Source: a virus | DNA length: 35,188 nt | IMG/VR virus record: IMGVR_UViG_3300042691_008953 | Span: 1 to 35,188 of that record | Reading direction: 5' to 3' (one strand) | Shown here: positions 934-21,635 of the stretch, piece after piece | Numbering within the stretch: the first letter of the stretch is position 1 | Layout: each line of letters opens with the position of its first letter | Program-made: the position numbers and the translations under genes | The notes under the pieces: generated by a model | What the model saw: only the letters and a program-made list of their open reading frames with translations | What the model was told of the DNA's origin: nothing | Databases searched by the model: none

Positions 934-1155
934 ATGAAATTCAAAATTGGCAATCTTGTTTCTCTTACCTTCAAAGATCACACAAATTGGATGGAAACTG
1001 TTGAGTGTACAGTAGTGGGAAAGATTGTTAAACTTCACAAAGATTACATTGTTGTTAGGTCTTGGCACTGTCACGGTCGAGATGACGAAGACAATAACCA
1101 CGAACAATTTTCTATAATAAAGTCTACAATTATTCATTGTCGCACACTTCGTTAA
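934..1155 (+). CDS. Small hypothetical protein, beta-rich
   Basis: A 73-residue basic protein that starts only 4 bp after the phosphoesterase stop, so it is probably co-transcribed with it. Its N-terminal half (KIGNLVSLTFKDHTNWMETV, then a VVGKIVKL strand pattern) looks like a small SH3-like or KOW-like beta barrel. This is a pattern impression, not a family match. Its last 26 bp overlap the 3' end of the convergent HTH-like gene on the minus strand. The function is unknown. Confidence 0.55.
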   Translation: MKFKIGNLVSLTFKDHTNWMETVECTVVGKIVKLHKDYIVVRSWHCHGRDDEDNNHEQFSIIKSTIIHCRTLR

Positions 1156-1402
1156 CTTTTAAGTCACGAATGCCCTTCCAAGAGATAATCTCACTCCAGT
1201 GAACAAAATCAACTCCAAGACGCTTGCCCATTTTAAACAAAGTGCTTGGCTCCATTTTTAACCTTCTAGCCGCGGCTCTTAGATAAAAATGTTTATTTCG
1301 ATTCATGATGTCTCTGCGTAATTCGTCGAGAGCTTCAAACATTCCTTCTTTATGAGCTATAGCAATATAGTCTTTATTATTTTTTGGCGTATATCTTTTC
1401 AT
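1130..1402 (-). CDS. HTH-like small DNA-binding candidate
   Basis: This 90-residue protein is the last gene of the leftward operon. Residues about 38-65 (FYLRAAARRLKMEPSTLFKM and onward) have the alternation expected of a helix-turn-helix: an alanine-rich helix, a turn, then a basic recognition-like helix. The start ATG overlaps the stop of the nuclease gene upstream by 4 bp (ATGA), indicating translational coupling. Its 3' end overlaps the convergent gene by 26 bp, so no terminator separates them. It could be a regulator of this operon or simply a nuclease-associated DNA binder; neither is shown. Confidence 0.6.
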   Translation of the reverse strand: MKRYTPKNNKDYIAIAHKEGMFEALDELRRDIMNRNKHFYLRAAARRLKMEPSTLFKMGKRLGVDFVHWSEIISWKGIRDLKVNEVCDNE

Positions 1403-2477: not shown

Positions 2478-3164
2478 TTACATAGGCAAGTTGCCAAGAT
2501 AAGGCTTGTTCTTGCCGAGAAACTCGCAAAGATCGTCATACTGTTTGCGAGAAAGATTTTTAGATGAATCAAGACCGTTGAACTTTTCTCTCATGATATT
2601 CTTAACTTCATCATTTGACCAGCCATTTACAGAAGCGATTGTATGAAGTCTTTTCAGTTGAGCCTCAGAAGGTCCAAGCACTGTTTTAGGTTCGCTAAAA
2701 GTCTTTGGAGCTTCAAACTTCTTAGGTGCTTCGTATTGCTTCGGCTCTGGCGAATCGTTTTCAGGGTCTTTGTCGTCTTCTGTTGGAATGGAGAACAATT
2801 GAACTAAAGCATATTTATGAGCAATGGCCATAGCTTTATTTGAAGACTTATCTCCAGAATCCATACCTTCTCCTATAGTTACTGCTTTTACATTTGAGCC
2901 GTCTTCTGCAAAAAATGTAAACTCTATTTTAAAAATAGATGTTGATAAAACTCCACCAGATTTTGATGGTTTTTCGATTCTTTGTTCTGATAGTACGTTT
3001 GTTGTAGAAAATACCTTATACTTTGCAAGTAATGGATGAAGTTCGTTGTAAACATCGTCTATGCCTCTAAATTTATATCCCTGAGATTGATTGTTGCGAT
3101 TCTTTGAAATGGCATTGATCTCTGACATAATAGCTGAAATTCGTTGATATATAAGGTTGTTCAT
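2478..3164 (-). CDS. erf: ERF-family single-strand annealing protein
   Basis: This 228-residue protein matches the ERF superfamily of phage recombinases. Residues 30-48 read YKFRGIDDVYNELHPLLAK, and residues 98-128 hold the signature GEGMDSGDKSSNKA followed by HKYALVQLFSIPTED. ERF proteins form rings on single-stranded DNA and anneal complementary strands during recombination and genome circularisation. A flexible, proline- and lysine-rich linker (about 131-165) joins the core to a C-terminal helical domain (about 167-222) of the kind also found in other phage annealing proteins. The start overlaps the end of the Gp157-like gene by 4 bp. No dedicated exonuclease partner is seen next to it, although two nuclease-like genes follow in the operon. 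Confidence 0.9.
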   Translation of the reverse strand: MNNLIYQRISAIMSEINAISKNRNNQSQGYKFRGIDDVYNELHPLLAKYKVFSTTNVLSEQRIEKPSKSGGVLSTSIFKIEFTFFAEDGSNVKAVTIGEGMDSGDKSSNKAMAIAHKYALVQLFSIPTEDDKDPENDSPEPKQYEAPKKFEAPKTFSEPKTVLGPSEAQLKRLHTIASVNGWSNDEVKNIMREKFNGLDSSKNLSRKQYDDLCEFLGKNKPYLGNLPM

Positions 3165-3889: not shown

Positions 3890-4159
3890 TTAGTTCCTCA
3901 CTTGCTGCAAGATTGCTTCTCTAGCTTCTGCATCTTTGAGCATTTCTTTGAAGTAGGACATTTCAAGCAAGTGATACTCTTGCATATTTTGAGCATATTC
4001 CAGAGCTTTGTCAGAGCAAGATTTAACATTGTCTTTGTTGACGATATTAGCGGCAGCCATCTTGATCTCGACTTTTGACCAGAAGTTGTATTCTTGCTGT
4101 TCTCGTTCGATGATCTTTTTAACTTTAGCTATGTGACTTGTTTCAATTGTTGTTTTCAT
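3890..4159 (-). CDS. First gene of the leftward operon, helical hypothetical
   Basis: An 89-residue, mostly helical protein (long charged helices such as IAKVKKIIEREQQEYNFWSK, and a C-terminal helix ending ILQQVRN). It is the first gene behind the leftward promoter at 4207-4235, with an excellent ribosome site, CAGGAGACAAT, before ATG 4159. The same GGAGACAATATGAAAA start context introduces the first gene of the rightward operon at 5133. The stop lies 1 bp from the start of the zinc-binding-like gene. The function is not recognised. Being first in its operon, it should be among the most strongly expressed. Confidence 0.65.
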   Translation of the reverse strand: MKTTIETSHIAKVKKIIEREQQEYNFWSKVEIKMAAANIVNKDNVKSCSDKALEYAQNMQEYHLLEMSYFKEMLKDAEAREAILQQVRN

Positions 4160-4206
4160 ATTGTCTCCTGTTTATCGGGGTTGTTTGCTCTTCCCTGATG
4201 AATGTG

Positions 4207-4235
4207 AAGGTAGATGATCTGTTTCATCCCGTCAA
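4207..4235 (-). promoter_or_regulatory. Leftward promoter with conserved leader
   Basis: Read on the minus strand: TTGACG at 4235-4230, a 17-bp spacer, then TACCTT at 4212-4207, followed at once by CACATTCATCAG and, two bases on, AAGAGCAA. An AT-rich stretch lies upstream at 4236-4265. The -35 is five of six to consensus and the -10 only three of six, so an activator may be needed. The rightward promoter at 5062-5090 has the same architecture and the same initially transcribed sequence, which is the main support for this call. Confidence 0.6.
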
Positions 4236-4265
4236 CACTTAATTCAAAATAATTTAATTATTCTT

Positions 4266-4304
4266 TTATGCACCGTATTATGCAATTATGCATTAAATTA
4301 TGCA
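4266..4304. repeat. Four direct TTATGCA repeats (operator, iteron or DnaA-box cluster)
   Basis: TTATGCA occurs at 4266-4272, 4278-4284, 4286-4292 and 4298-4304, with start-to-start steps of 12, 8 and 12. The first copy reads TTATGCACC, one base from the DnaA box consensus TTATNCACA. Next to it is a strongly AT-rich stretch (4240-4265). The cluster lies about 30-70 bp upstream of the leftward -35 and just after the end of the gene at 4311-4568. It could be an operator for the leftward promoter or an origin-type array. The same heptamer forms the inverted repeat at 197-216. Confidence 0.5.
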
Positions 4305-4310
4305 AAGGCT

Positions 4311-4568
4311 CTATAAGTCGCTCAGATAGCCGTAGCCTTCTTTTAGAGCTTCTGGCTCTTCGTCTGCTTGAATCGCTATATTGAGCCTCTGGTGCTGTTT
4401 AGAGAGCAAATAAGGCAATAGGCTGACTTGGGATGCGTCTATGTCGAAAGATACCCTGATACCACCGTCTACAGTAGTTCTAGCTGACTGGAATATGGCT
4501 TGTAGCGTTATGATCTCAGATTGTTTTTTCTTGGTCATAAAAATAATTTCTAGCCCTACTCTTTGCAT
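4311..4568 (-). CDS. Hypothetical protein upstream of the leftward promoter
   Basis: Up to 85 residues; a start at the internal ATG 4538 (residue 11, MTKKKQSE) would give 75. Neither start has a convincing ribosome site, although AGGG lies 14 bases before the internal one. The product has two beta-strand-like stretches around a GG turn (RTTVDGGIRVSFDIDASQVS) and a helical LLPYLLSKQHQRLNIAIQ segment, with an acidic tail. I do not recognise the family. It lies upstream of the leftward promoter, so it needs its own transcription start in the non-coding region to its right. Confidence 0.5.
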   Translation of the reverse strand: MQRVGLEIIFMTKKKQSEIITLQAIFQSARTTVDGGIRVSFDIDASQVSLLPYLLSKQHQRLNIAIQADEEPEALKEGYGYLSDL

Positions 4569-5061
4569 TGCGCAAATTTCAGGCTAGATTAGATTTTACT
4601 ACGAATCTGGAATCAATTTAACATATTTTGAGTCTGGGTAAAGAGCAAAGCTGTCAAGATTACTTGATGGCAGTGTAGGCAAGAGCGTTGTGAAGCTCAT
4701 AGAGGCACTAAAAAGAACTCTATCCAGATTCACGCTACCTGTTGAGGAACTCAGTTCAGCAAGAGGGACAGCATGAGAGTGACAGCAGCAACTAGAGCAT
4801 AAGACCTCAAAGACTGCCCATCCCCATAGTCGGGGTATCTCCGAGAAGGTTAAAGCCCTTCACCATAGGGACTATCTGCTATAGACAAAAAAGTGGCTCT
4901 TGCTATAGGCAAGTTCCCTACCCATTTCCGAATCTAGTTCTGCAAGTGGGAGAATCCCACATTCCCCTGATTATTTTTTATATAAAAATACCCTAACAGT
5001 GTTCGAGCTTGGCACTTAGACTCAGAGTGTTACAGCCCAAAAGAATTATTTAAAGTATCTG
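4569..5061. other. Non-coding divergent control region
   Basis: About 490 bp without a supportable gene; with the adjoining promoter and leader, the gene-free stretch is 4569-5132. It has short hairpins: TCAAG/CTTGA (4654-4667), CCCC-atagtc-GGGG (4822-4835), GAAGG/CCTTC (4845-4861) and GTGGGA-gaa-TCCCAC (4946-4960). A 12-base near-repeat, TGCTATAGACAA (4877-4888) and TGCTATAGGCAA (4901-4912), is followed by an AT-rich block (4971-4990). Short frames exist (for example 4642-4776) but lack an ATG and a ribosome site. The structure density fits a replication origin, an untranslated RNA or a multi-site regulatory region. I cannot tell which. Confidence 0.45.
4946..4960. terminator. Short perfect hairpin next to an AT-rich block
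   Basis: GTGGGA-gaa-TCCCAC is a perfect 6-bp stem with a three-base loop. A run of T begins about 12 bases after it on the plus strand (4973-4979), which is further than in a classic intrinsic terminator. It could stop a transcript coming from the left before the rightward promoter. Equally it could be a structural element beside an AT-rich unwinding region. Confidence 0.3.
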
Positions 5062-5090
5062 TTGACAGCAGGAAACGCTTCCAATAGGTT
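5062..5090 (+). promoter_or_regulatory. Rightward early promoter with conserved leader
   Basis: TTGACA at 5062-5067 is a perfect -35. A 17-bp spacer leads to TAGGTT at 5085-5090, followed by CACATTCATCAG and AAGAGCAA. AT-rich sequence (5041-5058) lies upstream. The -10 is poor (TA...T), as in the mirror promoter at 4207-4235. The two share the -35, the spacer length and about 22 of 24 bases after the -10. It drives the rightward small-gene operon starting at 5133. Confidence 0.6.
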
Positions 5091-5132
5091 CACATTCATC
5101 AGCAAAGAGCAACTAGCTGAAAAGGAGACAAT

Positions 5133-5336
5133 ATGAAAAAACTAACAGCACAACAAATCAACTTAGCAATGGCACAACTTCAGCTTAAACAAGCAAACGA
5201 AAGATACGACTTGCTGAGAGAGTTAAACGAAAAATGTCTGAAGGCAGAGCGATCAGAAGTTAAACACTATCTTGATGTAATACAAAACACCATTAACACC
5301 ATTGAAGATACCATTCAAAAGTTGAGCGGTAACTAA
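5133..5336 (+). CDS. First gene of the rightward operon, helical hypothetical
   Basis: A 67-residue protein predicted to be two long amphipathic helices (ITAQQ-type start, then LKQANERYDLLRELNEKCLK and LDVIQNTINTIEDTIQKL), so probably a small coiled-coil dimer. AAAAGGAGACAAT before the ATG is a strong ribosome site and matches the leader of the leftward operon. It is the first gene behind the rightward promoter, so high early expression is expected. No family is recognised. Confidence 0.65.
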   Translation: MKKLTAQQINLAMAQLQLKQANERYDLLRELNEKCLKAERSEVKHYLDVIQNTINTIEDTIQKLSGN

Positions 5337-5895: not shown

Positions 5896-6135
5896 ATGAG
5901 TATGCCGTTATGTAAAAACCCACCAGAAGAAGTTGAACAGTTTGTTGTGGAGCAATTCCATAAAGGAATAGGCTCTGCCAGAACCTCAACACAAATAGCA
6001 ATCAAGTTCAAAATCAGAGTTCCTTACAGCTACGTCTTACGAGTGCTAAACAAAAATGGTTTACGAAGAACAAAGCAAGAAGCCTATGCGGTTTCTCCAG
6101 CTTGCGATAGGAGAACTACTCTTGAAACCTGTTGA
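5896..6135 (+). CDS. HTH-like small protein
   Basis: A 79-residue protein. Residues about 32-65 (STQIAIKFKIRVPYSYVLRV, then LNKNGLRRTKQEAY) have the pattern of a helix-turn-helix with a basic recognition helix, as in small phage regulators or resolvase-like HTH domains. The ribosome site ACGGAGGATTAAG before ATG 5896 is strong. The last 80 bp overlap the following gene in another frame; there the product becomes SPACDRRTTLETC, an unstructured tail. A DNA-binding role is inference from pattern. Confidence 0.55.
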   Translation: MSMPLCKNPPEEVEQFVVEQFHKGIGSARTSTQIAIKFKIRVPYSYVLRVLNKNGLRRTKQEAYAVSPACDRRTTLETC

Positions 6136-6436
6136 AAACAATCAACTTGCGCTGTGTCATGATACTAAAGTAGACAGTGTAAACATTAAAAATATGCTTG
6201 ACACTTATCTAAAGGCTGACTCCATGAGACACGCCGCTAAGATCTTCGGCATATCAACTGAAAAGCTTAGACGGATCAGAGACAAAAACAACTGGCCTTT
6301 GAAGATCGGTGTCAATAAACAATTTCAGTGGGAGAAAACTAAAGTGAATCCACACAAGAAGTACAGCATATATGATGCAGTGGTGACCCATGGTGGATTA
6401 TCAGACAGAGACCTAAAAAGGGCATTGGAGTTATGA
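6056..6436 (+). CDS. HTH-like protein overlapping the previous gene
   Basis: Up to 126 residues from ATG 6056; an internal ATG at 6086 gives 116. Residues about 52-85 (MRHAAKIFGISTEKLRRIRD and onward) have a clear HTH-type pattern: A-A-K-I-F-G-I-S-T-E-K-L-R-R-I. The tail (YDAVVTHGGLSDRDLKRALE) is helical. It overlaps the upstream HTH-like gene by up to 80 bp in a shifted frame, and its stop overlaps the next ATG by 4 bp. The real start is uncertain because no clear ribosome site is present at either candidate. Confidence 0.55.
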   Translation: MVYEEQSKKPMRFLQLAIGELLLKPVENNQLALCHDTKVDSVNIKNMLDTYLKADSMRHAAKIFGISTEKLRRIRDKNNWPLKIGVNKQFQWEKTKVNPHKKYSIYDAVVTHGGLSDRDLKRALEL

Positions 6437-11394: not shown

Positions 11395-11632
11395 TAGTAT
11401 TTTCTTCGGAGTTTCAGTTCAGTTTGGTGACAGAGGATACAAAACCTACATTCATTCAAGCGACAAAGTAAAAGTTTGGTTCGAAGATGGATTCTTTTTT
11501 ATTGACGAAGGTGGCCACGACGTTATTTGTGTCGTCGCTCCTAACGTAAGACAGTTCACAAAAAAGAGGGTTGATGAATCAACAGGATCTAAAGATTCTC
11601 CAAAGATTCGTACAGCTAGAATGGACAAATAA
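11378..11632 (+). CDS. Small hypothetical protein before the terminase
   Basis: An 84-residue protein that overlaps the GNAT-like gene by 17 bp and the large terminase by 59 bp. Residues 1-60 are beta-rich (VSVQFGDRGYKTYIHSSDKV, then WFEDGFFFIDEGG). The tail read across the terminase start is basic and low-complexity. It looks like a small beta-barrel protein. No function is recognised. Confidence 0.5.
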   Translation: MRFDVDSIFFGVSVQFGDRGYKTYIHSSDKVKVWFEDGFFFIDEGGHDVICVVAPNVRQFTKKRVDESTGSKDSPKIRTARMDK

Positions 11633-12962
11633 AGATGATCTTAGGGGATTACTTTTCGACAAGCAGTTAAACTGTTTGAACGATAGATCTACTTTTGTAT
11701 CTGCTCTTTGTACACGTCGAGCTGGAAAATCTTATTTAGCAGGAGTCAGGTTATATATTGCAGCACTTACACACCCAAATTCTATTAGCATCTACATTGC
11801 TCTTACTCGTGCTTCTGCTCGTAACATTATGTGGCAGATCTTATTATCAATCGGCTCTAAAGCGGGTATCGAAATTGACCCAAAGGAATCTAGCCTTACA
11901 ATTAGAATACTGGAAACTAACTCAGAAATTCAACTCGTGGGCGCAGATACTAAAAATTTTATTGAGCGACTCCGTGGTATTCCTTACGCTGTCGTTCTTA
12001 TTGACGAAGCGGGATTCTTTAGAGATCATATTTCTTTACTTGTTGACGATGTACTGGAACCTTCGATATCGGACCTTAATGGGCAAATCATACTTTTAGG
12101 AACTCCTGCCGTAAGACCTCAGGGACTATTCTATGAGGCTACCATGGGGAAAGCTAACGGCTGGTCGGTGCACAAGTGGTCAGTGTTTGATAATCCTCAC
12201 ATGCCTAACCAGAGAGCTTTCGTTGATGCGATGATGAAGCGTCGAAACTGGACCGTTGAGAATCCAACTTATCAAAGAGAGTGGTGCGGTAACTGGGTAG
12301 AAGATCTTGATGCTCTTGTTTACAAATACAAAAAAGGAAAAAATGAATATAACGCGCTCCCTACCAATGACGGCTGGATTCGTGTTCTGGCTATCGACTA
12401 TGGATGGCACGACAAGACTGCTATCGCTGTTGTCGCGTATCATCCAAAGGTTAAGAAGTCTTATGTCGAATATGCAAAAGGCTATAGTGAGCTTATTCCT
12501 TCACAGATTGCAGAGATGCTTCAGAAGGTTATTCACCGATATTCTCCATCGAAAATAGTGGCGGATACTGGCGGATTAGGTAAGTCCATTACTGAAGAGA
12601 TGCGTATCAGGTATCAGATCCCGATTATCGCAGCCAGTAAGACCGATAAGGCAACTTATATATCACTTCTCAACGGTGACTTCATCGACGGGAATCTTCT
12701 TATTCATTCCAGCCTGTCAGAATTAAGTCATCAGTATTCTACACTCGTGAAGGATGAGGATGGAAGCGAAGATCCTACGATGCCAAACGACTTGTGCGAT
12801 GCGGTGCTTTACGCTTGGAGAGAAACCAGATCTTATCAGGGTAAAGAAGATAAAATTTACAGCACAAAAGAAGAGCGAATCAATGCGGAAGCTGATGCTT
12901 ACTGGCAGAAAGAATCTGAAAAAATAGAAGAAGAGGAGAGAAAAGAATGGTGGCAAAATTGA
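11574..12962 (+). CDS. terL: Terminase large subunit
   Basis: The packaging motor, 462 residues from ATG 11574; a TTG one codon upstream is possible. AGAGGG supports the start. Numbered from that TTG, the ATPase half has a Walker A of the R-R-A-G-K-S type (49-54), Walker B VVLIDEAGFF (141-150, D145-E146) and the coupling motif LLGTP (175-179). The nuclease half has the RNase H-like acidic residues D276 (LAIDYGWHDKTA), D332 (VADTGG) and D407/D410 (NDLCDAVLYAW). It cuts concatemeric DNA and pumps it through the portal. Ends in a charged KESEKIEEEERKEWWQN tail that overlaps the next gene by 16 bp. Confidence 0.95.
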   Translation: MNQQDLKILQRFVQLEWTNKDDLRGLLFDKQLNCLNDRSTFVSALCTRRAGKSYLAGVRLYIAALTHPNSISIYIALTRASARNIMWQILLSIGSKAGIEIDPKESSLTIRILETNSEIQLVGADTKNFIERLRGIPYAVVLIDEAGFFRDHISLLVDDVLEPSISDLNGQIILLGTPAVRPQGLFYEATMGKANGWSVHKWSVFDNPHMPNQRAFVDAMMKRRNWTVENPTYQREWCGNWVEDLDALVYKYKKGKNEYNALPTNDGWIRVLAIDYGWHDKTAIAVVAYHPKVKKSYVEYAKGYSELIPSQIAEMLQKVIHRYSPSKIVADTGGLGKSITEEMRIRYQIPIIAASKTDKATYISLLNGDFIDGNLLIHSSLSELSHQYSTLVKDEDGSEDPTMPNDLCDAVLYAWRETRSYQGKEDKIYSTKEERINAEADAYWQKESEKIEEEERKEWWQN

Positions 12963-13153: not shown

Positions 13154-15037
13154 ATGGAAGCAATGCGATGGTACGAAGAAAAAAACGGCAAAGTAAGCGA
13201 TATGCTGGTGCCTCTGATTAGATTCTTAAGACAGAATCAATCTTATCGGCACACGGAAAACTTGCGTAACGTAAGGCTGTACGGGAATCTTGATGTACTT
13301 GGTTTAAGCTCTCTCCAGTATTCAAGACCTTCTCCATCGAGTGCGAATCATCGAGTTACTCTTAACGTAATCAAGTCATGCGTTGATACTGCTCAGAGTA
13401 AGATCGCAAAGAACAAAGTGAAGCCTACTTTTTTGACAAGTGGTGGTGACTGGTCACAGCAGAAGAAAGCTAAGAAGCTGGACAAGTTTATTCTTGGTCA
13501 GTTTAATGCTTCAAACGTCTATACTATTGCGCAGAAGATCTTTATTGATGCTGGTATCTTCGGCACTGGCTTTATGAAGATCTACAACGATGATGGTCAG
13601 ATCGCTTGCGAAAGAACGGTTCCTGATGAATTGATTGTTGATGATGCAGAAGGTGTTTATGGATTCCCAAGAAACTTGTATCAAAGCAAATTTGTTTCAA
13701 AAGATGTACTGCTTGCGGCATATCCAAAGTACCGAAGACAGATTGAAGCACTTGAGACAGTCTCGACGAGTGCTACTTCGTTTAGCACGAACTATGCAAC
13801 TGAACAGGTTGTTGTCTATGAAGCATGGCACTTGCCTTCATCTAAGAGTAAAAAAGACGGATTACACGTTGTATGTATTGAAGGATGCGATCTTGGTTCT
13901 GAGGTATGGGAGAAAGATTACTTCCCATTTGCTAAGTTTATGTGGAGCGAAAAGCCTTTTGGGTTTTGGGGTAGTGGAATCAGTGAAGAGCTAACTGGGA
14001 TTCAAATTGAGATCAACAAGACGCTAAGAAACATTCAGATCGCGCATCACTTGATGAGTGCTCCAGCGGTTTACTTAGAAGATGGATCTTCTGTTTCTGC
14101 TCAGCATATCAACAACGAGATCGGTCGAATTATTAAATACAAAGGCGTTAGACCTATCCAAGATCCTCAGGGAATCATGGCACCAGAAGTCTATGCGCAC
14201 TTAGAGAATCTTTACCGTAAGTCATTTGAGATTGTTGGGATCTCGCAGCTCTCGGCTCAGAGTCAGAAACCTTCTGGTTTAAACTCTGGAAAAGCTCTTC
14301 GTGAGTTCAACGATATTGAGTCAGATAGATTCTTAGTAGTTGGTCAACGATGGGAAAACTTCTTCATGGATATAGCAAAGCAAATGATCGGCTGCGCTAG
14401 AGAGATCTACGAAGACGATAAAGACTTCTCTGTGAAGGTTAAAGGAAAGAAATTTCTTGAGACTATCAAGTGGGAAGAAGTCGATATGGCAGAAGACAAG
14501 TATATCATGCAAGTCTTCCCAACTTCTCTGCTTCCAACAAGTCCAGAGGGAAGGCTTCAGACGATTCAAGAGATGATCGAAGCTGGAATGATTGACCAAG
14601 AGACAGGCGCGGAGCTTTTGGATTATCCAGATCTTGAGAGAGCAAACGATTTAAACTTTGCTTCTCGTCAAGTTATCAGGGACATCGTTGATAGGATTAC
14701 GGATGAAGGAATGTTCACAGCTCCAGAGCCATACATGAATTTGGATTACGCTGTGAAGTACGCTCAACTTGCCTATAACAGAGCCAAGCTAGAGAATTGC
14801 CCAGAAGAGAATTTGGAGCTTCTGCGTAGGTTTATGGAACAGTCTATGAATCTTTTAGCTCCTCCAGAGCCAATGCAGCCACAACTTGAGCCTCTTCCAG
14901 AGAATCCAGCAATGGTCGCTCCTATGGAAGATGCTCCAATGCCTATGGGTGGCGATCCTAACGCTCTAGCAGGGATTCCAATGGAAGAAGCGGGAATGAT
15001 GGAAGTACCGCAACAAGAAGGCTTACCGCTTCAATAG
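13154..15037 (+). CDS. Portal protein
   Basis: This 627-residue protein lies directly between terminase and scaffold and has podoviral portal features. The N-terminal half includes NHRVTLNVIKSCVDTAQSKI and PDELIVDDAEGVYGFPRN. The central stretch WGSGISEELTGIQIEINKTL leads into a long helical stem region (about 278-300). YRKSFEIVGISQLSAQSQKP is followed by SGKALREFNDIESDRF. The last 75 residues are proline- and methionine-rich and probably disordered. Twelve copies would form the ring that docks the terminase and the head-tail adaptor. The ribosome site CAGGAGTG is strong. Confidence 0.92.
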   Translation: MEAMRWYEEKNGKVSDMLVPLIRFLRQNQSYRHTENLRNVRLYGNLDVLGLSSLQYSRPSPSSANHRVTLNVIKSCVDTAQSKIAKNKVKPTFLTSGGDWSQQKKAKKLDKFILGQFNASNVYTIAQKIFIDAGIFGTGFMKIYNDDGQIACERTVPDELIVDDAEGVYGFPRNLYQSKFVSKDVLLAAYPKYRRQIEALETVSTSATSFSTNYATEQVVVYEAWHLPSSKSKKDGLHVVCIEGCDLGSEVWEKDYFPFAKFMWSEKPFGFWGSGISEELTGIQIEINKTLRNIQIAHHLMSAPAVYLEDGSSVSAQHINNEIGRIIKYKGVRPIQDPQGIMAPEVYAHLENLYRKSFEIVGISQLSAQSQKPSGLNSGKALREFNDIESDRFLVVGQRWENFFMDIAKQMIGCAREIYEDDKDFSVKVKGKKFLETIKWEEVDMAEDKYIMQVFPTSLLPTSPEGRLQTIQEMIEAGMIDQETGAELLDYPDLERANDLNFASRQVIRDIVDRITDEGMFTAPEPYMNLDYAVKYAQLAYNRAKLENCPEENLELLRRFMEQSMNLLAPPEPMQPQLEPLPENPAMVAPMEDAPMPMGGDPNALAGIPMEEAGMMEVPQQEGLPLQ

Positions 15038-15926: not shown

Positions 15927-17132
15927 ATGCCAGCATTAGATATGACAAGTTTCGCAGGAGCTTTGAAAGAGCACTACGCAGGACAACGAGTACAAAACAT
16001 GGTCTATAAGGATAATCCTCTTTTAGCCATGCTTCCAAAATATGAGAAGTTCGGCGGCAAGAACTATCCTCTTCCTTTGATCTACGGAAACCCTACTGGT
16101 CGATCTGCTACTTTCTCGACTGCTCAGGGTAACAAAAACGGTTCAAAAATCGTTGAGTTCCTTTTAACTCGTAGCTCTGACTACGCTTTGGCTTCTATTT
16201 CTAACGAAGTTCTTGAAGCTTCTGTTGGAAACGTAAACGCTTTCATGGAAGCTGCTACTTGTGAGATTGACGGCGCAATCAATGCTGCTGCTCGCTCGCT
16301 TGCTATCGGTTGCTACGGCAGCGGTTCTGGTACTATCGGTCAAGTTGCTACCGCTTCTTTGGGCGTAACAACTATCACTTTGGTTAACATCAACGACATT
16401 ACCAACTTTGAAGTTGGCATGGTGTTGAAGGCTGCTACGACTGAAGCTGCTACCACGATTCGCGCTGGTTCTGTTACGATTACCGCTATCGACCGCGATC
16501 TCGGTACTCTTACTGCATCGGCTAACTGGTCAACTGGTATCGCTGCTATCGCTCAGAACGATTATCTCGTTCCCGATGGTGACGCTACGTTGAAAGTTAA
16601 AGGATTGGCTGCATGGATTCCCTATGCTGCTCCTTCTGCAACTGCTTTCTACGGTGTTGATCGTACCGCTGACGTTACCCGCTTGGCTGGTGTTCGTCAG
16701 GATGGTTCTGCTAAGCCTATCGAAGAAGCTTTGATTGACTTGGCTTCGCGAATTGGCCGTGAAGGTGGTCGTCCTTCTCACTTGTTCTTGGATTTCTCGA
16801 AGTACGCAGATCTTGAAAAAGCTCTCGGCTCGAAAGTTCAATATATCAGCGAGAAAGTTGGCGAAGTTGGATTCTCTGGTCTTCAGATCAATGGTCCTAA
16901 AGGAATGATTAAAGTTATTCCAGATCAAAACTGCCCTTCTAACTTGGGATATATGTTGTCTATGGATAACTGGAAGCTCTATTCTTTGGGTGGCGCTCCT
17001 AAGATCTTGGACAGCGACGGTATGAAGATGCTTCGTGAGTCAAGCGCAGACGCTGTAGAAATTCGTGTGGGCTACTATGCCGCGCTCGGTTGCAATGGTC
17101 CCGCGTACTCAGGCGTTGTTAAACTTAGCTAA
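15927..17132 (+). CDS. Major capsid protein
   Basis: A 401-residue protein right after the scaffold, expected to adopt the HK97 fold. It starts MPALDMTSFAGALKEHYAGQ and continues with NMVYKDNPLLAMLPKYEKFGG, GNPTGRSATFSTAQG and the SSDYALASISNEVL strand/helix typical of podovirus coat proteins. A threonine- and alanine-rich segment at about 143-205 (ASLGVTTITLVNINDITNFE) looks like an inserted beta domain exposed on the shell. The gene ends in front of a strong terminator, consistent with a need for high coat protein levels. Codon choice appears biased toward GCT and GGT, as expected for high expression. Confidence 0.93.
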   Translation: MPALDMTSFAGALKEHYAGQRVQNMVYKDNPLLAMLPKYEKFGGKNYPLPLIYGNPTGRSATFSTAQGNKNGSKIVEFLLTRSSDYALASISNEVLEASVGNVNAFMEAATCEIDGAINAAARSLAIGCYGSGSGTIGQVATASLGVTTITLVNINDITNFEVGMVLKAATTEAATTIRAGSVTITAIDRDLGTLTASANWSTGIAAIAQNDYLVPDGDATLKVKGLAAWIPYAAPSATAFYGVDRTADVTRLAGVRQDGSAKPIEEALIDLASRIGREGGRPSHLFLDFSKYADLEKALGSKVQYISEKVGEVGFSGLQINGPKGMIKVIPDQNCPSNLGYMLSMDNWKLYSLGGAPKILDSDGMKMLRESSADAVEIRVGYYAALGCNGPAYSGVVKLS

Positions 17133-18903: not shown

Positions 18904-20442
18904 ATGGCTACTCCACTAATGACGATTACTCTACCAGTGGTAGGACCAGCAGGAACACTTGGACCAGAGTGGGCAAATACTCTTAACGCTGCTTTTGATA
19001 CTATCGACTCTCACGATCACACTACTGGAAAAGGAAAGAAGATTCCTACTGCTGGATTTTCGATTGATGGAGATTTTAACCTAAACAGTTTTGCTTTACT
19101 TACTGCAAACTATGTAAAGCTAGTGAATAACGTATCTACAGTTTCTGATTACACTACTTTGTATTGTATTAACGGAGATATGTATTGGAAAAATGCTAGT
19201 GGTGTTGCAATTCAACTTACTAGCGGTTCGACGATTAACGTGGCTGGAGTTGGTGGAATCGGGGGAGACTATACAACTTCTACAGCTTCGGTAACTTATT
19301 CAGATATTACGAAAACATTTTTATTTAAGCAGAATCCTACAACTACAGCAGACATATATAGTGGATCTTTGTTTATTTGTGAGACTATTTCTGCTGGTAA
19401 CAGTGTAGAAATTCAAGCTCCAAGCGCATTGGCTTCAAGCTATCAGTTAACTCTTCCAACTGCTCTTCCAGCATCTAAAAAAATTGTGACAATGACTTCA
19501 AGCGGTGTTCTTTCTGCTGATGATTCATTTAGCTCAACTTTAGATATTCAAAACTACACAATAGTCGCGTCTGTAGCTTCAAGTGCTTTAACTGTAGCAA
19601 TTAAAACTTTAGCTGGAACAGATGCAACTACTTCTAATCCTGCTTTTATATCATTCAGAAGTGATACTGCTGGAAGCGGTGTATTTGTTAAAAGAACTAT
19701 AACGAGTGCCTTATCAGTTGTTGTTTCAAGTGGTGCTACTCTTGGTCACTCAAACGCTACCGCTCAATATATTTACGTCTACGCATTGGATAACGCTGGA
19801 ACGGTAGAGCTTGCAGTATCTTCCACGCTGTTCAATGATCGAGTTGTTCAAAGCACAACTGCTGAAGGTGGCGCTGGCGGCGCTGATACCTCTTCAGTGC
19901 TTTATTCAACGACTGCTAGAACAAGTAAAGCTATTCGTCTTATCGCTAGGCTAACGTCTAACCAAACAACGGCTGGGACATGGGCGGCTGTGCCTACTGC
20001 GATTACATTGATGCCTGAGAATCCCGATCCAGTTAACATCGTTGTTAGTTCTGGTAGTGGTGCCTTTTCTACTACAGCACTAAACGGTTCAGAGGTAGAT
20101 GTAACAAACTTAACTGTTACAATTCAAACATCAGGTAAGCCAGTTATCATCCAAATGATTCCAGATTCTCAGAGCGCAAACTCTAGTTACATTGGTGGTA
20201 ATGCTCCAGCGGCTGGTACTTATTTTACTAGGTTACTTTTAGACAGAGGCGGCTCAACTATTGCTAGATTTGAGATTGGTTTCAACCATGCAGGTTCAGA
20301 CCTATACAGGATAGGGAGCACTGTGATTTTTTACGATGCTCCTACTGCGGGAACTTATACATATAAAATAAAACAATCAATGAGCTCCGCTGGAACAAAC
20401 GCAGTTACTAACTACATGAGGCTGATTGCCTACGAACTATGA
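18904..20442 (+). CDS. Tail-fibre-like protein 1
   Basis: A 512-residue beta-rich protein with a ribosome site AAGGGGAATC. The N-terminal part (GPAGTLGPEWANTLNAAFDT, then IDSHDHTTGKGKKI) is the attachment-type module of many phage fibres. It is followed by repeats ending KKIVTMTSSGVLSADD (about 195-205). The middle third is a typical fibre domain with VFVKRTITSALSVVVSSGAT and TARTSKAIRLIARLTSNQTT. The end folds as a beta sandwich closing in TNYMRLIAYEL. It is paralogous to the next gene in the first 200 residues and in the C-terminal domain. It probably contacts the host surface. Confidence 0.8.
   Translation: MATPLMTITLPVVGPAGTLGPEWANTLNAAFDTIDSHDHTTGKGKKIPTAGFSIDGDFNLNSFALLTANYVKLVNNVSTVSDYTTLYCINGDMYWKNASGVAIQLTSGSTINVAGVGGIGGDYTTSTASVTYSDITKTFLFKQNPTTTADIYSGSLFICETISAGNSVEIQAPSALASSYQLTLPTALPASKKIVTMTSSGVLSADDSFSSTLDIQNYTIVASVASSALTVAIKTLAGTDATTSNPAFISFRSDTAGSGVFVKRTITSALSVVVSSGATLGHSNATAQYIYVYALDNAGTVELAVSSTLFNDRVVQSTTAEGGAGGADTSSVLYSTTARTSKAIRLIARLTSNQTTAGTWAAVPTAITLMPENPDPVNIVVSSGSGAFSTTALNGSEVDVTNLTVTIQTSGKPVIIQMIPDSQSANSSYIGGNAPAAGTYFTRLLLDRGGSTIARFEIGFNHAGSDLYRIGSTVIFYDAPTAGTYTYKIKQSMSSAGTNAVTNYMRLIAYEL
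19012..19035 (+). repeat. 24-bp perfect repeat shared by the two fibre genes
   Basis: The same 24 bases occur at 19012-19035 and 20604-20627; they encode the HDHTTGKG motif. A second shared block encodes WKNASGV in both genes (near 19186 and 20778). The repeats come from duplication of the fibre gene and could support recombination between the two copies. Confidence 0.75.
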
Positions 20443-20495: not shown

Positions 20496-21635
20496 ATGAC
20501 TACTCCATACATGGCATTAACTTTGCCAACAGTAGGACCAGCAGGGACACTCGGACCAGAGTGGGCCGATGTTTTAAATGCAGCTTTCGATGAAATTGAT
20601 GCTCACGATCACACTACTGGAAAAGGAATAAAAATAACTCCTTCAGCTATAAATGTAAACGCATCTTTTAGTTTCCAGACCTATCCTATTACAAGTTTAG
20701 GATATGTAAAATTTGTCAACCAAGTAGCTACACAGTCAGATTACACAACTGTATATGCAAAAAATGGAGATCTTTACTGGAAAAATGCTAGTGGTGTAGA
20801 TGTACAAATTACAACTGGATCAACAATTAACGTAGCTGGTGTTGGCGGTATTGGTGGAGATTACACTGTTTCAAGTGCTCAGCTAAACTATACTATTGCA
20901 GGGACATCATTTTCATTTAAGCAAAGTGCAACAGTAACCGCGGATCTGTCTGGCGGATCTATATTTATTACTGAAAACGTAGTTAGTGGAAAATATGCAA
21001 AGATCGCTGTTCCCGCCGGTCTTGTTGCAAACTATAACTTGACGCTTCCAGCGGCTCTTCCAGTATCTAAGAAGATAGTAACAATGACTTCAAGTGGAGT
21101 TATTGAAGCAGATTACGATGTTGATAATGCAAGTATCGAAGTAAACGCTGGCACTGTAAGAGTAAGAGATTCTGGAATTACAACTGCAAAATTAAACAAT
21201 GGAGCAGTTACTCAAGCAAAAAGAGAAGCTTTGAACATTGTTTACTCTTCAACTATCACAAGCTCCGTGCTTGGAACTTCAAAAACTCTAGCTGGAAGCG
21301 TTAGCTTTACTTCTACTGGTAGACCTGTTTTTGTTTGTTTAAAGTCTGTTGGCAATCCAGCAGCTTTACAAGCGTCTTTTTCTGGTGCAGCACACACTTT
21401 AACTGGTGGAAGAGTTTACTTAGATAGAGATGTTACTCAGATCTATCACAACGTAGTTAGTTACCAACACGCAAGCACGAGTTCTGTTACTGCTGTTGAC
21501 GTTCCTCCATCTAGTATTTGTTTTATTGATAATCCTTCTGCTGGAACTTATCTTTATAAAATATCGTTATCTGGATTTTCTGGAAGCGACACGATGTATT
21601 TAGACGGTGTTCAACTTTGTGTTTATGAATTGTAA
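20496..21635 (+). CDS. Tail-fibre-like protein 2 (paralogue of the gene before)
   Basis: A 379-residue paralogue of the preceding protein. It shares the N-terminal GPAGTLGPEWADVLNAAFDE, HDHTTGKG, WKNASGV, INVAGVGGIGGDYT and KKIVTMTSSGV blocks, but lacks the central 130-residue fibre domain. In place of that domain it has RVRDSGITTAKLNNGAVTQA, a short linker repeat seen in phage fibres. The C-terminal sandwich (GRVYLDRDVTQIYHN, FIDNPSAGTYLYKISLSG, ending LCVYEL) is a divergent form of that in the first copy. It begins 53 bp after the first copy. A small hairpin (CTCGT-gaag-ACGAG) at 20457-20470 lies between the two genes. Confidence 0.8.
   Translation: MTTPYMALTLPTVGPAGTLGPEWADVLNAAFDEIDAHDHTTGKGIKITPSAINVNASFSFQTYPITSLGYVKFVNQVATQSDYTTVYAKNGDLYWKNASGVDVQITTGSTINVAGVGGIGGDYTVSSAQLNYTIAGTSFSFKQSATVTADLSGGSIFITENVVSGKYAKIAVPAGLVANYNLTLPAALPVSKKIVTMTSSGVIEADYDVDNASIEVNAGTVRVRDSGITTAKLNNGAVTQAKREALNIVYSSTITSSVLGTSKTLAGSVSFTSTGRPVFVCLKSVGNPAALQASFSGAAHTLTGGRVYLDRDVTQIYHNVVSYQHASTSSVTAVDVPPSSICFIDNPSAGTYLYKISLSGFSGSDTMYLDGVQLCVYEL

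Follow-up and report, generated by a model that had tools for sequence, protein, structure and literature searches.

Two near-copy promoter-plus-leader modules ahead of divergent early operons in an uncultured phage: a possible shared operator

The virus record IMGVR_UViG_3300042691_008953 comprises 35,188 bases with a G+C content of 40%, and the whole of it was analysed (hereafter, the window). Its structural region encodes a large terminase at 11571-12962, followed by a portal-like head-tail adaptor at 13154-15037 and a major head protein at 15927-17132. Two adjacent structural genes on the plus strand, at 18904-20442 and 20496-21635, have long DNA repeats in common (up to 43/50 identical) and match the same stretches of relatives, an apparent tandem duplication. 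The early region is divided into two divergent operons. The left operon is a tight leftward gene block running from 4159 to about 1130, and it includes Gam/Gp157-like and Erf-like genes. The right operon consists of rightward genes from 5133 to about 8662, which are mostly small and of unknown family, with an HNH endonuclease at about 8662. The first gene of the left operon (3890-4159, minus strand) encodes 89 aa and that of the right operon (5133-5336, plus strand) 67 aa. Neither belongs to a known family, and BLASTP found no homology between them.

Each of these first genes is directly preceded by a promoter-plus-leader module. The left module (L) extends from 4235 to 4153 on the minus strand and the right module (R) from 5062 to 5139 on the plus strand, at a distance of 827 bp. 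The order of elements is the same in both: TTGAC, a 17-nt spacer and TAnnTT, then CACATTCATCAG, a pair of free bases, AAGAGCAA and finally AGGAGACAATATGAAAA, whose 17 nt are identical. In L, the -35 hexamer TTGACG (4230-4235) is followed by the -10 hexamer TACCTT (4207-4212), the start-site block TTCACATTCATCAG (4195-4208), the free bases GG, the leader block AAGAGCAA (4185-4192) and the Shine-Dalgarno/start block AGGAGACAATATGAAAA (4153-4169). The corresponding elements of R are TTGACA (5062-5067), TAGGTT (5085-5090), the start-site block (5089-5102), the free bases CA, the leader block (5105-5112) and the exact 17-nt Shine-Dalgarno/start repeat (5123-5139). Transcription from sigma70-type promoters starts 6-9 nt after the -10 box, and this spacing places the predicted +1 near A4199 in L and near A5098 in R.

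Direct reading of the sequence bore out the original prediction that divergent operons share TTGAC, a 17-bp spacer, TAnnTT, a leader and a start context. The -10 boxes are weak in both promoters, as it had also stated; each matches at 3 of 6 positions, and the same two core positions distinguish one box from the other. Some details had to be adjusted. The shared 14-mer placed after the -10 box is present in both copies, but its first TT is part of the -10 hexamer. The same elements lead from leader to start, but at distances that differ by 5 nt: the spacing from -35 to AAGAGCAA is rigid, and the gap between AAGAGCAA and the Shine-Dalgarno sequence is the longer one in L. The description of the two promoters was correct as far as it went, but it missed a UP-like AT-rich block upstream of both. 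The likeness between L and R dies out shortly past the start codon.

Other elements were noted in the early region. Four copies of TTATGCA are packed into 39 bp immediately upstream of the left promoter (4266-4304, plus strand), and an inverted pair, TTGCATAATTGGTTATGCAA, occurs at 197-216 upstream of the gene at 231-929. The TTATGCA copies and the TTGCATAATTGGTTATGCAA pair are candidates for a second shared operator or an iteron. An intergenic stretch of about 390 nt with no clear gene (4600-4985, plus strand) has a more stable fold than most of its shuffles (z -2.1), and its end is marked by a hairpin and a T-run. It matched no Rfam family, and may possibly be a structured phage RNA.

The similarity of L and R is far above chance and unique among the gene starts of this genome. 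From the -35 hexamer to the leader, the modules are identical at 38 of 51 positions with no gap. The best 50-nt L/R window reached 37/50, compared with 32-34 for the best pair in each of 10 Markov genomes and 29/50 for the runner-up among pairs of upstream regions in the window. The gapped L/R alignment scored 97, whereas no score above 54 arose in 1000 shuffles; for the trimmed pair of gene starts the score was 88, and the highest score among the other 1034 gene-start pairs was 36. Exact copies of TTCACATTCATCAG are found at these two sites only within the window, and AGGAGACAATATGAAAA stands at two gene starts only in this genome. Over the 83 alignment columns, the exact runs of 17, 14 and 8 nt are more clustered than when the same matches are placed at random (p 0.045 for the top run, 0.005 for the top two and 0.002 for the top three). 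Within the 51-nt stretch from -35 to leader, the clustering of matches was not significant (p 0.08-0.10). The spacer is only about half identical, in contrast to the exact blocks that flank it.

A sigma70-type promoter has a -35 hexamer close to TTGACA, a spacer of 16-18 nt and a -10 hexamer close to TATAAT. Both copies show these hexamers and spacing, with TTGACA or TTGACG, 17 nt, and TAGGTT or TACCTT as a weak -10 box. Upstream of each lies a putative UP element in the same register relative to -35: TTAAATTATTTTGAATTAAGTG in L (4236-4257, minus strand; 11/14 consensus positions) and AAAGAATTATTTAAAGTATCTG in R (5040-5061, plus strand; 10/14). Scored against the consensus as quoted in PMC11661796, at least 10/14 positions were matched at 3 of the 71 TTGAC sites in the window, two of which are L and R. 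A simple sigma70 weight-matrix scan ranked R about 5th and L about 58th of 351570 scored positions and spacings, and both sites score under the cut-off of a simple promoter scan. The UP/-35 stretch of L has a 35-nt match to a region of Acinetobacter phage Acibel004 with an annotated -35 and -10, and further matches lie between genes in two Pseudoalteromonas phages. These sites have the UP element and TTGAC in common with L but lack the leader, which suggests that the promoter part is general and the leader part peculiar to this phage. L and R resemble UP-element sigma70 promoters of the rrnB P1 type and the Acibel004 promoter at 40689 in the register of UP element and TTGAC and in the 17-nt spacer. 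Those promoters, however, lack the shared start-site and leader block, and that of Acibel004 has a better -10 box (TAAAAT). The UP elements and the match to the annotated Acibel004 -35 region strengthen the promoter reading. The reading of L and R as UP-assisted sigma70-type promoters, with a strong -35 and a poor -10, is well supported by these sequence features.

No copy of the whole module was detected in 50,697 phage records or among 2.9 million viral contigs, nor in 84,980 genomes or about 50 portal relatives. Pattern scans of viral contigs and genome contigs gave chance-level matches, none of them with the leader. In a DNA similarity search of phages and plasmids, the UP/-35 part of L alone had matches elsewhere, and the matches of R were at chance level. 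A search with the portal protein identified 80 viral contigs. No module was seen in 48 whole records of portal relatives with up to 3 mismatches allowed. The portal relatives have structural genes in common with this phage, but its early genes have almost no homologues among them. No prophage relatives were found in genomes, and a de novo search of the relatives' genomes examined revealed no comparable paired promoter module as strong as this one.

The relatives showed features of their own. The viral contig loci L013-L090 represent a broad uncultured phage family that has portal, capsid and structural proteins of about 1000 aa, though not early genes, in common with this phage, and several of its records are 32-39 kb long with direct repeats at the ends. 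One portal relative (G032, IMGVR_UViG_3300047172_000023) carries a pair of an intergenic 16-mer, TTGTCTAGTCGCTGCT, at 2601-2616 (minus strand) and 6260-6275 (plus strand). These copies precede a late and an early gene and are unrelated to the L/R module. A 13-mer, CTAATAGGAGCGG, lies at two further intergenic places of the same record (29882 and 35302).

The conserved bases of L and R span about -8 to +16 relative to the predicted start, at a fixed distance from -35. The rigid spacing from -35 to AAGAGCAA, together with the 5-nt slip before the Shine-Dalgarno sequence, makes this unit look like a protein-DNA architecture around the predicted start site. The start-site block is asymmetric and overlaps both promoters. 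It has no shared dyad symmetry, the best centres giving 5-6 of 10 complementary half-site matches; many phage operators are palindromic. We tentatively propose, at somewhat short of an even chance, that the two modules are a duplicated early promoter, each copy having an element at the start site to which a single phage regulator binds, likely a shared repressor. The position of the conserved block leads us to prefer a repressor operator over an activator site, as the zone from -8 to +16 is usually bound by repressors rather than activators. Against the operator reading stand the missing dyad symmetry, the presence of two copies only and the non-significant clustering over 51 nt. A different repeat family, TTATGCA, which lies next to the left promoter, is no less plausible as the operator.

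Of the three functions put forward for the leader in the original prediction (antitermination site, common operator, activator site), the common operator fits best and antitermination found no support. A processive antitermination site of the nut or put kind, loading both early transcripts, would suit the position and pairing of the leaders ahead of two divergent early operons, as in putL/putR and nutL/nutR. In HK022, related leaders likewise lie behind both early promoters, but the put RNA is about 70 nt long with two stem-loops (PMC9378689), whereas the L/R leader is short and unstructured. The leader RNAs show no folding beyond that of shuffles (z -0.63 and -0.79, one weak stem each) and do not form the two-stem put fold described in PMC9378689. 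Nor do they have the sense boxA and boxB hairpin of lambda nut sites. The boxB hairpin is absent in both leaders, and the boxA-like octamer TTGCTCTT is the reverse complement of AAGAGCAA and thus antisense, with no boxA on the sense strand. An Rfam search of the leaders returned no family, and no convincing pairing was seen between the leader and the neighbouring possible intergenic RNA. The N-like proteins of lambda nut-type systems are too variable to be excluded. Overall, antitermination appears highly improbable, and the unstructured leader RNA favours a site in the DNA. We also considered an antisense-strand CUGAUGA that resembles part of a hammerhead, and dropped it, as the complete core was not seen and Rfam gave no match.

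Alternatively, one promoter region may have been copied onto the other operon fairly recently, by duplication or gene conversion; L and R would then match at the start site and leader through residual ancestry, with no regulator dedicated to that match. Such an origin agrees with a likeness that covers the whole upstream region, UP part included, with the non-significant clustering of matches in the promoter-leader stretch, and with the finding that none of the relatives carries the module. The exact runs of 14, 8 and 17 nt beside a half-diverged spacer, an altered -10 core and a 5-nt indel argue against it, as do first genes with no homology, and we regard it as fairly unlikely. Another explanation, which we consider unlikely, is that the shared 5' end of the transcripts acts at the level of RNA or initiation with no dedicated repressor, through promoter escape, start-site choice, mRNA stability or translation. 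In its favour, the predicted +1 and the first 16 nt are among the conserved bases, both copies have the start-codon block in common, and the leader is open and unstructured. However, the other genes of the phage lack the block, and roles in escape, stability or translation seldom demand an exact 12+8-nt sequence at a fixed distance from -35. It is very unlikely that a phage activator or a phage-modified RNA polymerase uses the block as its site and so rescues the poor -10. Two boxes that each match at 3 of 6 positions and differ mutually at the same core positions would call for such help, but the UP element and near-perfect -35 already suit early use by the host polymerase. Activators rarely bind at -8 to +16, and no phage RNA polymerase or sigma factor was recognised among the scanned proteins. 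We think it quite unlikely that the block and the weak -10 form a new initiation-coupled control element and not a plain operator; such an element might, for example, act at the start site to place a phage factor on polymerase as it departs from both early promoters.

Under the preferred operator reading, L and R would be paralogous copies of one early promoter region driving the two divergent early operons, with recombination genes (Gam/Gp157-like, Erf-like) as the left output and small early genes as the right. Each copy would act as a host sigma70-type promoter, in which the UP element and strong -35 compensate for the poor -10. A single DNA-binding protein encoded by the phage would recognise the bases from about -8 to +16 as an asymmetric site; this protein would most likely be a repressor that switches off both early operons jointly. 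The start-site element of both copies would be kept under selection, and the Shine-Dalgarno block would be a separate shared element serving translation of the first genes. Candidate regulators with a weak helix-turn-helix signal are encoded at 1130-1402 (minus strand) and 6056-6436 (plus strand), and the predicted structure models of both are of poor quality. The small protein of 1130-1402, at the far end of the left operon, has a middle part that resembles a Fis-type helix-turn-helix by eye, with no Pfam support.

This arrangement has parallels in known phage control systems. As at lambda PL and PR under CI and Cro, similar promoters with common elements lead into two divergent early operons with recombination genes on the left. 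The L/R element differs in being asymmetric and lying over the start site and leader, and the L and R promoter regions are near-copies. No CI/Cro-like pair was recognised in this phage, and the L/R block is not a palindromic operator of the CI/Cro type. Mycobacteriophages L5 and L1 have a short asymmetric operator that overlaps the early promoter Pleft, as well as stoperators (PMC1934351). The L/R element is alike in being a short asymmetric sequence overlapping an early promoter, but the L5 operators occur in many genome-wide copies, whereas the L/R element has two, both at promoters, and the sequences are unrelated. An operator of the L5 type is, in addition, bound by a phage repressor. The SAS/ESAS of Cluster K mycobacteriophages are short asymmetric repeats at translation starts (PMC3203893), and the L/R repeats likewise lie near starts. 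A genome holds 11-19 SAS copies, however, and it is the start codon that defines them, whereas the L/R element has two copies tied to promoters. The many start-codon copies of a 13-bp sequence that characterise SAS/ESAS are not seen here, AGGAGACAATATGAAAA being found at two starts.

Common control of divergent early operons is a well-known wiring; the sequence of the module is new, not seen elsewhere in the data searched. Control of both blocks at once by one phage regulator is the most likely purpose of the near-copy promoters. The analysis delimits the region of early control in an uncultured phage, one whose structural genes are those of a broad family represented among metagenome-derived viral contigs. 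Since L and R replicate a single regulatory unit naturally, the idea of a shared regulator lends itself to easy testing.
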